7,146 bases of DNA, taken from NCBI GenBank assembly GCA_017614655.1, contig JAGABO010000085.1:1-7146 (forward strand). Reading direction: 5' to 3'. The DNA comes from Treponema sp. GTDB taxonomy: Bacteria > Spirochaetota > Spirochaetia > Treponematales > Treponemataceae. A model generated the notes under the pieces. That model had not been told where the DNA came from and ran no database searches. It was given only the letters and a program-made list of their open reading frames with translations. Below are positions 2,352 to 7,146 of this stretch, piece by piece. The stretch's first letter is position 1. Every line of letters starts with the position of its first letter. Both the position numbers and the translations under genes were made by a program.

Positions 2352-3950
2352 CTATTTCTTTCTGCTGTAGATTCTGTAATTCATCCACGGGTAAATGGCG
2401 TCCTGCTTTTCTTTTTTTGTAAGCCAGTCCGTGCTTACGGTATTCGAAGCAAGTGCATTAAAAATCATGGTGAATGAAAGTATGTGGCGCTTAAAAGTAT
2501 CTTTTACGTATTCGGTAAGTTTTCCTTCATGAAGCATAAGGGGCCACTGTCCGCTCTGTGCAAGAAGAATTTCTTTTGCAGCAAGATTAAGGAGACGTCC
2601 CTTAAGGCTGGTTTCTGAAGGAAGCCTTTCTGCAAGATCTGTCATTCTTTCCGTTGCTTTCCTGATGTAACGGTACATCCAGCTGTTTGAATCATCAAGA
2701 AGATTTTCTCCGTATCCTGAATCATCACCGGTGGAAGGGAAGGGGTCTACTTTTTGAAGTGTAAGCTGATCTTCAAGAAGATTACGGCAGAGATCAAGTT
2801 CAACTCCCTCTCCGTCCTTACAGAATGAACGTATTACTTTTTCCAGAAAGATAATTCCTTCGTGCCATTTTTCGCCGATAAGTTCAGCAGGAATTACGCA
2901 GATGTCAGAAACTGTTTTTTCGGGAAGCAGTTCTGCTGCTTTTGAAAGTTTTTCTTTTATGCTGTCAGTAAAGACAGCTGCATCTTCTGTTACCTGTTCA
3001 AGAGCTTCTTCCGGATCGTAGATTTCTGTTTCTTCTCCCGGATCATCTCCGCCTTTTTTCCAGTAGCGGTAAAGGGTACCGCTTCTTACTCCCGAGTTAC
3101 CGAGAAAGGATTTAAGTTCTTCTGCCTTAAGTTCGTAGCCTATATCTTTAAACTCCGAACGGTAAACTTCGTTTTCTACAAAGCCTTCTTCTCCGTTTAT
3201 AAGTTTTAGTGCCTGACTGTCTGTAGGAAACAGAATGAGAGAAGAAGGACTCCTTACCGGACGGAAAATACCTGTGTCGCAGGCATTGTTCGAAAAAAGT
3301 ACGGTACGCGGGTCTACCAGAGTGTAGTTCATTCCGTAAGAACGGAGAATTCTGTCTAATCCAGGCGCAAAGCCCATGAACGGCAGGAAGAAACCGTCTC
3401 CGCTTTCTCCGAAGAACTGTCTCTGTGCGTAAAGACCTGTTTCTACCTGTGCATTGACTGCTTCTTCCAGATCAGAAAAGTGGGGCAGATATGCGTAAGT
3501 AGCTGCTGTCGGAATAAGTTCTATTAAGCCTTTTGCAGCAAAGGAGGCAAAAGCTTTTGTAAGGTTTTTGCCGTATTTTTCCGTAAAGTCTGATTTTGTC
3601 TTCTTAAAGTTTTCGAGCGTTTCTTTTGCAAGTTCACTGCATTCAGAACCTTTAGTACGTTTTATTTCGCTTTCTCCGAGTTTTATAGCCCTTTCAAGGA
3701 AGTTTTCGTACTGTTTCTGAATTTCTGCATCGTTTAAGAGTTCTGCCAGCTGGGAAGAAATTACCATAGAAATCTTAAAGTCTGCACCTTCTGATTCCAG
3801 CTGTGAAAAAAGATTTAAAAGCGGAATGTATGTTTTTGTTATTGCCGAAAAAAGTACTTCGTTTTCGTTTGTAAACTCAGTTTTGCTGTTTAAGTTTCTT
3901 ATGTACGCCTGATTTGCATTTATTACAAGTACGAGTTTTTTAGCTGACAT
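2352..3950 (-). CDS. GH57 branching-enzyme-like protein with DUF1957 C-terminus; predicted catalytically inactive
   Basis: This 532-residue protein has the length and layout of GH57 1,4-alpha-glucan branching enzymes. Family landmarks are all recognisable (numbering from the 3950 ATG): KLVLVINANQAYIRN (about 5-19), GLIELIPTAATYAYLP (141-156), GFFLPFMGFAPGLDRILR (186-203), FKDIGYEL (267-274), AELIGEKWHEG (355-365), NSWMYRYI (422-429), WPLMLHEGKLTEYVKDTFKRH (469-489) and AIYPWMNYRIY near the end. At the catalytic sites the family residues are missing. HAH is NAN (11-13), the ATH histidine is Tyr152, the nucleophile Glu of WLPE is Phe191, and the acid/base Asp before AELFG is Pro354. The fold is probably kept but chemistry lost, so a glucan-binding or regulatory role is more likely than branching. 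An ATG also exists at 3956, but the Shine-Dalgarno at 3962-3957 abuts it and sits 6 nt from 3950, so 3950 is chosen. The stop is TAG at 2354-2352. The gene starts 10 bp after the DUF4912 stop codon, so the two are probably translationally coupled. Family membership is secure; inactivity is inferred from a by-eye alignment. Confidence 0.9.
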   Translation of the reverse strand: MSAKKLVLVINANQAYIRNLNSKTEFTNENEVLFSAITKTYIPLLNLFSQLESEGADFKISMVISSQLAELLNDAEIQKQYENFLERAIKLGESEIKRTKGSECSELAKETLENFKKTKSDFTEKYGKNLTKAFASFAAKGLIELIPTAATYAYLPHFSDLEEAVNAQVETGLYAQRQFFGESGDGFFLPFMGFAPGLDRILRSYGMNYTLVDPRTVLFSNNACDTGIFRPVRSPSSLILFPTDSQALKLINGEEGFVENEVYRSEFKDIGYELKAEELKSFLGNSGVRSGTLYRYWKKGGDDPGEETEIYDPEEALEQVTEDAAVFTDSIKEKLSKAAELLPEKTVSDICVIPAELIGEKWHEGIIFLEKVIRSFCKDGEGVELDLCRNLLEDQLTLQKVDPFPSTGDDSGYGENLLDDSNSWMYRYIRKATERMTDLAERLPSETSLKGRLLNLAAKEILLAQSGQWPLMLHEGKLTEYVKDTFKRHILSFTMIFNALASNTVSTDWLTKKEKQDAIYPWMNYRIYSRKK

Positions 3951-3956
3951 CCCCAT

Positions 3957-3962
3957 CCCCTT
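3957..3962 (-). promoter_or_regulatory. Ribosome binding site AAGGGG that decides the GH57-like start
   Basis: The minus strand reads CTAAGGGGATGGGGATG. AAGGGG overlaps the TAA stop of the DUF4912 gene. It touches the first ATG (3956) with no spacer but lies 6 nt from the second ATG (3950), which is normal spacing. This favours 3950 as the start and links translation of the two genes. The same TAAGGGG arrangement precedes the ATPase gene at 5785-5792. Confidence 0.6.
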
Positions 3963-4629
3963 AGTTTGAAAAAGACTGTCTGTGATTTATGTAGTGTGAA
4001 TAAAGGAGTTCCTTCATTCCGGAAAGTTCTACAAGCGGACTCATCTTTATTTTTTTACCCGGCTGCATGTCCCTTATGTCTTCACGCTCTTTAAGTATTT
4101 TCATTTTTTTAGAGAAAGTAAGTACCCTCGGCTGTTCATCTGCAAATTTCTGCGCAAGACTTACCATGACGTATTTTTTATCTGTCGGGATAAGGACGGA
4201 AAGTTCTCTCTGCTCCGGTTTTATGCTTAAGTCGAATGAATCGCACGGTTTTTCGTCGGTTTCATTTTCGTAGAATGTGATGTGAAGAAAAATGCTTTCG
4301 AAAGACGGATCCTGTTTTATCACGGCCATGTCTGATTCCTTTATGTCCCAGTAGACAAAAAGCCAGGCAGGATTTCTCATGAAAAGGGATACCGTTGTGT
4401 CGTTGTAAGTAAGCGGAAGATCCTGTTCTTCGAAAAGTTCCTGTTCGGTAAGGGTTTCGTCTGTGCCTGTTCCTGCGGCATCTTCTTCGGTAAATTCAAG
4501 AAGTTCTCCGATGATAAGCCTTCTGTCTAAGTTGTCGGGAAAATCAATTCCATAGTCATCTGCAAGGCTTAATAAATCAGCAGTAGACATTGCTTCCAGT
4601 CTCTGCCGTGTCAGGAGATCTTTTTTCAT
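3961..4629 (-). CDS. DUF4912 domain protein with SAP/Rho-N-like N-terminus
   Basis: This 222-residue soluble protein has no signal peptide or membrane segment. Residues 10-46 (motif LEAMSTADLLSLADDYGID) resemble the helix-extension-helix of SAP or Rho N-terminal domains, followed by an acidic linker at about 47-72. The DUF4912 core runs from about 73 to 172. Its hallmark is TYNDTTVSLFMRNPAWLFVYWDI (74-96 region), followed by alternating beta-type strands up to PRVLTFS. The C-terminus (173-222) is basic. The molecular function of DUF4912 is not established as far as I know. Its position directly upstream of the GH57-like gene, with only 10 bp between stop and start, implies that the two proteins work together. 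The ATG at 4629 has no clear Shine-Dalgarno, and a start very close to the predicted transcription start would fit a near-leaderless mRNA. An internal ATG at 4590 (MSTADLL) would cut into the N-terminal domain and is less likely. Confidence 0.88.
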   Translation of the reverse strand: MKKDLLTRQRLEAMSTADLLSLADDYGIDFPDNLDRRLIIGELLEFTEEDAAGTGTDETLTEQELFEEQDLPLTYNDTTVSLFMRNPAWLFVYWDIKESDMAVIKQDPSFESIFLHITFYENETDEKPCDSFDLSIKPEQRELSVLIPTDKKYVMVSLAQKFADEQPRVLTFSKKMKILKEREDIRDMQPGKKIKMSPLVELSGMKELLYSHYINHRQSFSN

Positions 4630-4801: not shown

Positions 4802-4808
4802 ATTCTTT

Positions 4809-5178
4809 TGGAGATGGGGGGAATTGAACCCCCGTCCGAACAAGTTAACCAGGCACCTCTACAGGCTTATTGAAGCGAGGTGTTTGTCGGGAAAGGGTAG
4901 CGGCTTCAAAGGCGTCCTTTCCGTATCGCAGAAAGAAGTCCCGTACACGGCCTGCGCTCCGTGCAAAGCAAGTCCCTGTCTGTGACAGCAGTTTACGGCG
5001 TTAGGAACAGCACACCGCAAGTGCCGGTCTCGCATTAAGCAGCGAGGCTAACTGCTTCGGAAGATTCCTCTTCACGACGTTTTGCAACTTTTGCAGTTAT
5101 TGTTTTGTCAGTTTAAGGCACCTTCACGCCTGCCTGCAGCACAAGATTACTCCTGCCCGTCGAAACCGGAACATCCCC
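4809..5178 (-). ncRNA. ssrA: Transfer-messenger RNA (tmRNA), one-piece
   Basis: tmRNA rescues stalled ribosomes with SmpB by acting first as tRNA-Ala and then as a short mRNA. The 5' end, GGGGATG (5178-5172), pairs with CATCTCC (4816-4810) to form a 7-bp acceptor stem with one G-U pair. It is followed by TTCCGGTTTCGACGGG, the conserved tmRNA D-analogue region. At the 3' end, GGGGGTTCAATTCCCCC is the T arm. The discriminator is A4809 and CCA is not encoded (the next bases are AAA), so CCA must be added enzymatically. CAGGCA near the 5' end can pair with TGCCTG near the 3' end as the long P2 helix. The stop codon of the tag lies in the loop of a CTCGC/GCGAG hairpin, as in helix 5 of other tmRNAs. 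The length is about 370 nt, and 5' and 3' halves are in normal order. The gene has its own promoter and terminator. Confidence 0.95.
5035..5094 (-). other. tmRNA proteolysis-tag reading frame
   Basis: The resume codon is most likely GCA at 5094-5092. It is preceded by TAACT, which keeps the U and A at -5 and -4 known to matter for tag-frame setting. Reading from there gives AKVAKRREEESSEAVSLAA and then TAA at 5037-5035, 19 residues. A second in-frame GCA at 5085-5083, preceded by AAGTT, would give a 16-residue tag starting AKRREEE. The LAA ending fits recognition by ClpXP-type proteases. The frame and ending are clear; the exact first residue is not certain. Confidence 0.75.
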
Positions 5179-5229: not shown

Positions 5230-5778
5230 TTAGTCACCTACAGTAACACCGTGTCTCTTCTGCTGGAAGTGCTTGAGCATTGCTACTCCGTTTCTCTTGT
5301 CGTTGTAGATGAAACCGCCGTTCCAGTATTCAAGGGCTGCGAAAAGTGCGTTTCCGCCGTCCTGATCATCAGATTTTTTTGTACGGAAAGTTACGTAGTT
5401 TGCAAGTTCTTCGAAGTTTGAATCGCGGAGAGCGTCAATTCTTTTTCTGTTGAACTCATTCCACTTTTCAAGATCCTTAAATCCTTCACCTTCGTCTTCT
5501 ACGATGATGTGTGCATGTGTTGCACTGAAGGAGTACCATACGCGAACCTTCTTGTTGATGTCGCAGTTATTTCCGTGTTTTACTGCGTTTTTGATAATTT
5601 CACTTATCTGCTGTTCAAGAAGGTTAATTTCCTTGATTTCAAGGGGAGCCGACTGCACGATAAGAAGCGTGAAGTATCTGATCTGCCTGAAGTCTGACGG
5701 AAATTCCTTGTAAAGCATATTTGCTTTGTCAAAGAGCGGGTCGTTGCTGTCTGCACGTAATTCTTTGAGTTCTTCCAT
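5230..5778 (-). CDS. GHKL ATP-binding protein, RsbW/SpoIIAB-like serine kinase or anti-sigma factor
   Basis: This 182-residue protein has the Bergerat ATP-binding fold of RsbW-type kinases. The N box is EQQISEIIKNAVKHGN (55-70, with E60, N64, H68, G69), the G1 box is VEDEGEGF (93-100), and a G2-like region is DGGNALFAALEYWNGG (140-155). The three-element order and the length fit the anti-sigma kinase family. There is no histidine-kinase dimerisation domain. In this family the protein binds a target such as a sigma factor and phosphorylates the STAS partner encoded just upstream. The G1-to-G2 segment (101-139) is long and charged, and the G2 box lacks the usual GxGxG pattern, so kinase activity is likely but not assured. 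It starts 11 bp after the STAS stop with Shine-Dalgarno AAGGGGG (5791-5785) 6 nt from the ATG, which suggests coupled translation. No target gene lies in the window; ssrA follows directly. Confidence 0.87.
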   Translation of the reverse strand: MEELKELRADSNDPLFDKANMLYKEFPSDFRQIRYFTLLIVQSAPLEIKEINLLEQQISEIIKNAVKHGNNCDINKKVRVWYSFSATHAHIIVEDEGEGFKDLEKWNEFNRKRIDALRDSNFEELANYVTFRTKKSDDQDGGNALFAALEYWNGGFIYNDKRNGVAMLKHFQQKRHGVTVGD

Positions 5779-5789
5779 TTTCTGCCCCC

Positions 5790-6128
5790 TTATTCATTTA
5801 TCATAAGAAGAGCTTCTTCAACGCTGTTGGCAATAGGGAAATAGCCCATAAGTTTCGTAAGCTCAATAACTTTCTTTACAGAACCGTGTATATTGGAAAT
5901 GTAAAGCTTCAGATTCATCTTCTTAATGGTTGAAGAAATGTAAATGAGAGCTCCGATTCCGGACGAGTCGATGTAGTCAACCTGTTCGAGATTGATTACG
6001 AAGGACTTTACGTTCTTCTCAAGCATCTTCATTACAAGTTCCTTGAGTTTGTAAGAATTGTACAGATCCATTTCACCATTTACGTCGATGATGTAAACTT
6101 CGCCATTCTTACGGATTTTAAGTTCCAT
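5790..6128 (-). CDS. STAS-domain anti-sigma-factor antagonist (RsbV/SpoIIAA-like)
   Basis: This 112-residue protein is a single STAS domain covering nearly the whole chain. It begins with strand VYIIDVNGEMDLYNS (11-25), and then has FVINLEQVDYIDSSGIGAL (43-61). Asp54-Ser55-Ser56-Gly57 matches the phosphorylation loop of SpoIIAA and RsbV, in which the Ser directly after the Asp (Ser55 here) is the kinase target. In the family the unphosphorylated form binds the RsbW-like kinase and frees its target; the PP2C phosphatase encoded upstream restores this state. The ATG at 6128 has an excellent Shine-Dalgarno, AAGGAG (6141-6136), spaced 7 nt. Part of it lies in the short inverted repeat CCTTTAAAAAGG (6149-6138). 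Gaps of 29 bp upstream and 11 bp downstream place it in one operon with both partners. It should be cytoplasmic. Confidence 0.93.
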   Translation of the reverse strand: MELKIRKNGEVYIIDVNGEMDLYNSYKLKELVMKMLEKNVKSFVINLEQVDYIDSSGIGALIYISSTIKKMNLKLYISNIHGSVKKVIELTKLMGYFPIANSVEEALLMINE

Positions 6129-6157
6129 TTTCTAGCTCCTTTTTAAAGGTTTATTTC

Positions 6158-7146
6158 CTAAAATTTCACAATAAGCAGAGTCTGGTCATCATGCTGCACA
6201 AGACTTCCGCTGAATTTTTTTATGTCTGCCTTTACAAGGTTGACAATATCTTTTCCCGATGAATTGTGATTCGTCTGGATTAATTTAAGCAGTCTGTCAG
6301 TAGTATACTGTTTTCCTGCATCATTGAGCGATTCAACAATACCATCTGTGTACATAATCATTATATCACCTTTTTTGACATCGTGCATATAATTTTTGTA
6401 CTCGGTTGACTTTTCTACTCCGATAGGTTCACTCTGAACGGAAATCTTTTCGATACTGTTCGTTTCTCCGCTGTACCAGTAGAGAGGAGTCGTACCGCAG
6501 GAAGAGAATTCAATCTTTGAAGTTTCCGGATCATAGTTAACGAGGGCAAGAGAACCGAAATGGTCTGCACTGAAGGATTCACCTGAAATTCCCTTGTTTA
6601 CCCAGTTAAGGATTGTTCCTGCAGTCTGTTTTGTATTTACGACCAGGCGGAGCATTGCACGTACCATCGTCATAATCATGACGCTGTTTATGCCTTTTCC
6701 TGCAATATCTCCGACGATGAAGGAAACCCTGTCTTTTCTTGATGGAATGACATCATAGAAGTCACCGCAGACACCTTCGTTCTGTTCGAACAGGGATCCG
6801 ATCTGTACATCCTTTATAATCGGGAGCTTTACAGGACGGAGCATACTCTGGATATTGATTGCAAGATCCGTTTCCTTTGTAACTCCGTTATGCTCGATAA
6901 CTTCCTTAACTGTTATTGAATTCTGAACGGCTTCTGCAGCAAAACCTGCAAGAGTTTTAACAGTTTCGAACTCTGCTTCCGTAAATTTAGGGCTTGAATG
7001 GCTTCTTGAAAGTGCTATAAGTCCGATTACGGCATCTCCGTTAAGCATCGGAACTACAATATAGCTTCCACATTCAAGGAATTCTTCCGGTCCGTTCTGA
7101 TAAATGCGGTCATCCATTTCCGGTTTTGTAATGAGTTCCGGCTTTC
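6158..7146 (-). CDS. GAF plus PP2C/SpoIIE-type serine phosphatase, RsbU-like (5' end outside window)
   Basis: The frame stays open to the window edge, with nine complete codons upstream of the ATG at 7117 (KPELITKPE). That ATG therefore falls inside a domain and is not the real start. The 328 visible residues (numbered from 7144) begin with the C-terminal half of a GAF-type sensor domain (about 1-75; YIVVPMLNGDAVIGLIAL, then FTEAEFETVKTLAGFAAEAV). A short helical linker leads to the SpoIIE/PP2C domain (about 95-328). All metal-binding aspartates expected for this family are present: CGDFYD (D128, D131), VGDIAGKG (D146), YTDGIVE (D267) and HDDQTLL (D319, D320). The predicted job is to dephosphorylate the STAS protein encoded 29 bp downstream when the GAF domain senses a signal. 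The N-terminus may hold more sensor modules. The stop is TAG at 6160-6158. Confidence 0.92.
   Translation of the reverse strand, partial: KPELITKPEMDDRIYQNGPEEFLECGSYIVVPMLNGDAVIGLIALSRSHSSPKFTEAEFETVKTLAGFAAEAVQNSITVKEVIEHNGVTKETDLAINIQSMLRPVKLPIIKDVQIGSLFEQNEGVCGDFYDVIPSRKDRVSFIVGDIAGKGINSVMIMTMVRAMLRLVVNTKQTAGTILNWVNKGISGESFSADHFGSLALVNYDPETSKIEFSSCGTTPLYWYSGETNSIEKISVQSEPIGVEKSTEYKNYMHDVKKGDIMIMYTDGIVESLNDAGKQYTTDRLLKLIQTNHNSSGKDIVNLVKADIKKFSGSLVQHDDQTLLIVKF

Follow-up and report, generated by a model that had tools for sequence, protein, structure and literature searches.

Why would a spirochaete maintain a branching-enzyme gene whose product appears to have lost the means of catalysis? 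This question is raised by a glycoside hydrolase family 57 (GH57) branching-enzyme-like gene of Treponema sp., located at positions 2352..3950 (minus strand) of a 7,146-nucleotide stretch (positions 1 to 7,146 of contig JAGABO010000085.1, assembly GCA_017614655.1) that is referred to below as the window. The reading favoured here, to which a probability of roughly 0.58 is assigned, is that the product has become a scaffold subunit without catalytic function, its expected binding partner being the DUF4912 protein of the adjacent gene. A descendant of a glycogen branching enzyme (GBE) would thus have kept its fold, lost its catalytic residues and the tryptophans gripping the glucan, and been maintained as a protein-binding scaffold for the upstream-encoded DUF4912 protein, the contact perhaps being made via the tail of the latter.

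Fold, active site and maintenance of the GH57-like protein

Read from the ATG at 3950, the gene encodes a putative pseudoenzyme of 532 amino acids, the length of the database copy (P0001); another possible start, an ATG in the same frame at 3956, would lengthen it to 534, and it is this longer form that is used for residue numbering, with T. maritima AmyC (2b5d) as the reference. The frame is open and AAGGGG lies upstream of the 3950 ATG, with 6 bases between its end and the start codon, in agreement with an earlier note on this DNA that had described both frame and ribosome binding site as intact. As expected of the GH57 fold, a (beta/alpha)7 barrel with a helical domain, the protein matches PF03065 (E 2e-17) and PF09210 (E 2e-28) in Pfam and aligns with AmyC over residues 7-532 (E 5e-72). 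Structure prediction, which the note had proposed as a check, returned a complete GH57 fold, confident over the full length, so that the protein is predicted to be a GBE descendant retaining that fold. The NCBIfam branching-enzyme equivalogs, in turn, were matched with only 180.7 (NF041566) and 161.1 bits (NF041133), and their curated cut-offs (920/1000) were not reached.

Alignment to AmyC, numbered as in PMC6616209, locates the changes, all on the minus strand. The HAH motif (AmyC H10, the polariser, and H12) reads NAN at residues 13-15 (3912..3920), the histidine of ATH (H146) is Tyr154 (3495..3497), the nucleophile Glu185 of GH57 branching enzymes is Phe193 within FLPF (3378..3380) and the acid/base Asp349 is Pro356 within IPAELIG (2889..2891). 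These four replacements had been read correctly in the note (HAH to NAN, ATH to ATY, WLPE to FLPF, DAELFG to PAELIG), as had the loss of the VWS tryptophan; Trp29, Trp402 and Trp411, which it did not list, are gone as well. In full, AmyC H10/H12/W29/H146/E185/W246/D349/W402/W411 correspond to N/N/V/Y/F/N/P/G/L, the gatekeeper tryptophans W29, W246, W402 and W411 thus being V, N, G and L. According to Table 1 of PMC6616209, AmyC, itself a GH57 GBE, retains E185, D349, H10, W29, W246, W402 and W411, of which Trp246 is buried and W411 not visible; the window protein has none of the seven. Two near relatives, P0002 (65% identity) and P0003 (64%), read DNVYFTPGM and NNIYYLPDL at the nine positions, and since the same kind of change occurs in independent proteins, sequencing error is excluded. 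The GH57-like protein would hence lack branching activity (EC 2.4.1.18), and alpha-glucan is probably no longer bound in the old groove.

Could the gene simply be decaying on its way to loss? The active-site changes are indeed numerous and vary among members, but the frame is open, many positions outside the active site are invariant, and, of the window's genome and 58 relatives taken together, all but one encode the protein (58 of 59), the exception being an 80% complete genome. Ratios of non-synonymous to synonymous substitution (dN/dS, Nei-Gojobori), also suggested by the note as a check, were calculated for 86 non-redundant pairs of 75-98.5% identity from the window's family, that is, the taxonomic family of its Treponema (order and class below are its higher spirochaete ranks). 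Far from approaching 1, they did not exceed 0.150 in the 73 pairs with finite dS, and ranged from 0.024 to 0.150 (median 0.081) in the 50 with dS < 1.5; one pair of intact enzymes gave 0.079, at dS 2.3. Strong purifying selection on the gene within the family is therefore indicated by these comparisons, decay is hardly credible, and the view of the note that the gene is maintained is borne out.

Active-site residues across the spirochaetes

A sample of 296 genomes from across the phylum gave matches in 168, with none among the listed members of one small-genome family (f7). For comparison, 116 spirochaete rows chosen from the hits were aligned with two PDB sequences; not every hit was included and one large genus was thinned. 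All nine AmyC-type residues are intact in 18/18 rows outside the class and in 6/18 within the class but outside the order; the complete set occurs in none of the 23 rows of the order outside the window's family and in none of the 57 of the family itself. E185 and D349 are kept together in 13/18 rows of the class outside the order, 2/23 of the order outside the family and 11/57 of the family, and the trio W246, W402 and W411 in 16/18, 17/23 and never, respectively. Among 102 database proteins (the window copy and two fragments included), H10, W246, W402 and W411 are each kept in none, E185 in 5, D349 in 27 and E185 with D349 in 4; for 80 named loci of Treponema type, part of them from genomes already counted, E185 is kept in 14, D349 in 36, both in 7 and H10 in none.

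Families f3 and f4 carry Gln at the nucleophile in 14/16 rows and keep D349 in 16/16, whereas family f5 keeps E185 in 5/6 and has D349 changed in 4/6, which points to inactivation by different routes. On a quick LG+G4 tree built with the trait columns removed, the fewest changes required are 12 for E185, 15 for D349, 10 for H146, 8 for H12, 7 for H10, 6 for W29, 11 for W246, 5 for W402 and 1 for W411; these counts treat gaps as a state, so that some are slightly high, and do not distinguish gain from loss. Active-site loss is order-wide among the aligned rows and proceeded in steps, from the intact enzyme through loss of the polarising histidine, then of nucleophile or acid/base depending on the lineage, to loss of the substrate groove. 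The maintained pseudoenzyme proposed in the note is supported; the condition is not peculiar to one protein, no aligned member of the order having an intact set.

The note had also suggested a glucan sensor; on this view the dead enzyme, in the manner of a lectin, would continue to hold alpha-glucan in its groove and serve to report the glucan or to localise it. Such a role would suit the order outside the window's family, where the nucleophile is Gln in 14/23 rows and the three tryptophans are all kept in 17/23; these groove-intact relatives look like glucan binders. Among structure titles is that of a GH57 mutant, E256Q, determined together with maltopentaose; E256 is presumably the nucleophile, and a Glu-to-Gln change can then leave glucan binding intact. 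In addition, GlgA and phosphorylase matches are each present in 42 of the 46 genomes, the window's own included, that were searched for the glycogen pathway. In the window's family, however, Trp29, Trp246, Trp402 and Trp411 are kept in only 4, 0, 1 and 0 of 57 rows, many members carry bulky aromatics at catalytic positions, and the gene persists in one genome from which both glycogen synthase and phosphorylase are missing. For this family a sensor is consequently disfavoured and seems rather unlikely. Because the family has abandoned the groove, unlike its Glu-to-Gln relatives, a scaffold is preferred; the note had offered this too, and it fits better than the sensor, but the candidate partner was not named there.

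Gains were found as well. At AmyC position 319, His is found in all 26 intact rows (two being the PDB sequences) and Asp in 54/57 family rows, and further positions fixed in the family but not in intact enzymes form a run along the helical part towards the C-terminus (427-452, 488-511 and 526-533). The newly fixed positions were acquired stepwise: class-wide gains comprise T509, W511, R444, F445 and F530, order-wide gains E172, F189, Y207, N526 and K533, and those of the window's family D325, F488 and Y430. The new acidic position, the eleven family rows keeping both E185 and D349, and a debranching enzyme without a recognised branching enzyme in the window's genome might speak for an enzyme acting through other residues or in another reaction. 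Nevertheless, since in the window protein Phe and Pro occupy the places of the catalytic pair and Asn those of H10 and H12, no acid substitutes there and the substrate gatekeepers are gone, this is very improbable.

The DUF4912 neighbour and the glycogen pathway

The scaffold's candidate partner is a DUF4912 protein of 222 amino acids (3961..4629, minus strand; PF16258, 51.0 bits, cut-off 29.4), composed of N-terminal Rho_N-like helices (~8-53), the DUF4912 beta-sandwich (~78-180) and a family-specific C-terminal tail (~198-222). Only 10 bases (3951..3960, minus strand) separate its stop codon, which AAGGGG overlaps, from the GH57-like ATG, and the two genes are probably translationally coupled. 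Throughout the family, almost all genomes retain the GH57-like gene next to this partner. By sequence comparison, the conserved tail is new in the window's family only. The DUF4912 proteins of f3 and f4 (L035, L039, L042, L044-L054, L056, L057) end in another conserved motif, mostly PSRIL or RIL, and occur where GH57 mostly has the Glu-to-Gln nucleophile. The window's DUF4912 protein does not match Rho_N (PF07498) at E <= 1, a threshold reached by 23 of 58 scanned copies (best 0.0055); three of 10 more distant DUF4912 proteins match Rho_N at E <= 0.5, only L206 exceeding the cut-off (31.3 bits, E 2e-7). These helices raise the speculative possibility of contact between the complex and RNA or DNA.

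Alternatively, the GH57-like protein could assist a glycogen enzyme, GlgX or GlgA for example, as its catalytically inactive subunit. Plants offer a precedent: ISA2 has this role for ISA1, being a non-catalytic paralogue retained as a subunit (PMC12510319). GlgA and phosphorylase matches do co-occur in most of the 46 genomes, among which DUF4912 and GH57 were each found in 44; NCBIfam scans of the candidates from 7 genomes identified GlgX in every case, and GH13 GlgB exceeded its curated cut-off in none of the 46, with one model that passed in 4/14 controls. In the window's genome (57% complete, 231 contigs), on the other hand, GlgX adjoins GlgP on contig C230 and GlgA lies on C164, whereas the GH57-like gene is on C69, at a distance that the fragmented assembly leaves undefined. 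Moreover, the 1.14 Mb family member G114 retains both the GH57-like and DUF4912 genes with GlgA, phosphorylase and GlgB-model matches all absent, and G313 likewise keeps the GH57-like gene without GlgA and phosphorylase matches. A glycogen-enzyme subunit is accordingly doubtful.

The window's genome encodes a second GH57, a 4-alpha-glucanotransferase-like protein of 635 amino acids cut at the contig edge (L220:6992-8896, minus strand, C164). It reads IFKSIWDP where L233 has LTEQVWEP, the catalytic motif being missing. The Glu of this TEQVWEP-type motif, presumably the nucleophile, is missing at the aligned place in 7/7 family genomes examined, and in G321 and G114 a Glu stands one place earlier.

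Several observations weigh against a DUF4912-binding scaffold. DUF4912 also adjoins intact enzymes, in at least 6 of the 18 rows outside the class, all of them intact, and Pfam's DUF4912 model adds G062 to these cases; the adjacency is hence older than the loss of catalysis and might reflect nothing more than synteny. The tail is missing from 2/55 family DUF4912 copies, one of them in a reduced genome retaining the gene pair, and the E185 and D349 pair survives in the 11 family rows mentioned above. The dN/dS values are those of the family and not specific to the window's branch, whose nearest DNA relatives have dS >= 1.5, one infinite.

In its boldest form, which we consider unlikely, the proposal would make the former branching enzyme the core of a new Rho_N-DUF4912 complex, probably acting on nucleic acid, much as plant MKIP1 turned into a splicing factor, and essential enough to outlast glycogen metabolism, the phylum retaining an active enzyme, a groove-intact dead form and a groove-less scaffold. 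Apart from this bold form, living families preserve the steps from enzyme to non-enzyme, and since the new fixed positions and the partner tail arise at identifiable nodes, a usually invisible process becomes testable. The name "1,4-alpha-glucan branching protein", borne by several members in databases, is likely wrong family-wide, host-associated treponemes included.

Elsewhere in the window, on the same minus strand, an incomplete 767-residue protein with a signal-peptide-like start (3-2303) is encoded 48 bases downstream of the GH57-like gene; it matches no Pfam family above its cut-off, and a relative lies downstream in 54/196 loci, adjacent in 15. A tmRNA gene occupies 4806-5178 (Rfam RF00023, 124.4 bits), and domain search identified an RsbW-like ATPase, a STAS protein and a SpoIIE-type phosphatase with GAF at 5230-7144, which we take to be a partner-switching regulatory cluster, the ATPase being named RsbW on the same assumption.

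Comparison with known systems

PMC6037648 describes, as a group of 60 bacterial sequences, GH57 "GBE-like" proteins without catalytic residues, and the definition of the group, GBE kin with one or both catalytic residues replaced, fits the window protein. The spirochaete proteins may well be among these 60. The main text of that paper does not contain the word Treponema, its two "spirochaet" hits concern another enzyme, and its available passages speak neither of a partner gene or a loss in steps nor of a test for selection or a lost groove. Among the titles listed in the open-licence literature, no paper was found on spirochaete GH57-like proteins, their partner or their stepwise loss.

Two plant proteins, ISA2 and MKIP1, both of which we take to belong to family GH13, invite comparison. 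ISA2 (PMC12510319) resembles the window protein in being a non-catalytic alpha-glucan enzyme retained as a subunit, but it binds a catalytic paralogue, has a role in starch and belongs to another glycoside hydrolase family. MKIP1 is a plant branching enzyme of class III that has become part of a splicing complex (PMC13172542). Unlike the window protein, it has CBM48 and acts in plastids, and its fold and partner are unrelated; the likeness lies in a branching enzyme without a catalytic centre having turned into an interaction platform, and in the Rho_N-like helices of the DUF4912 neighbour in the window.
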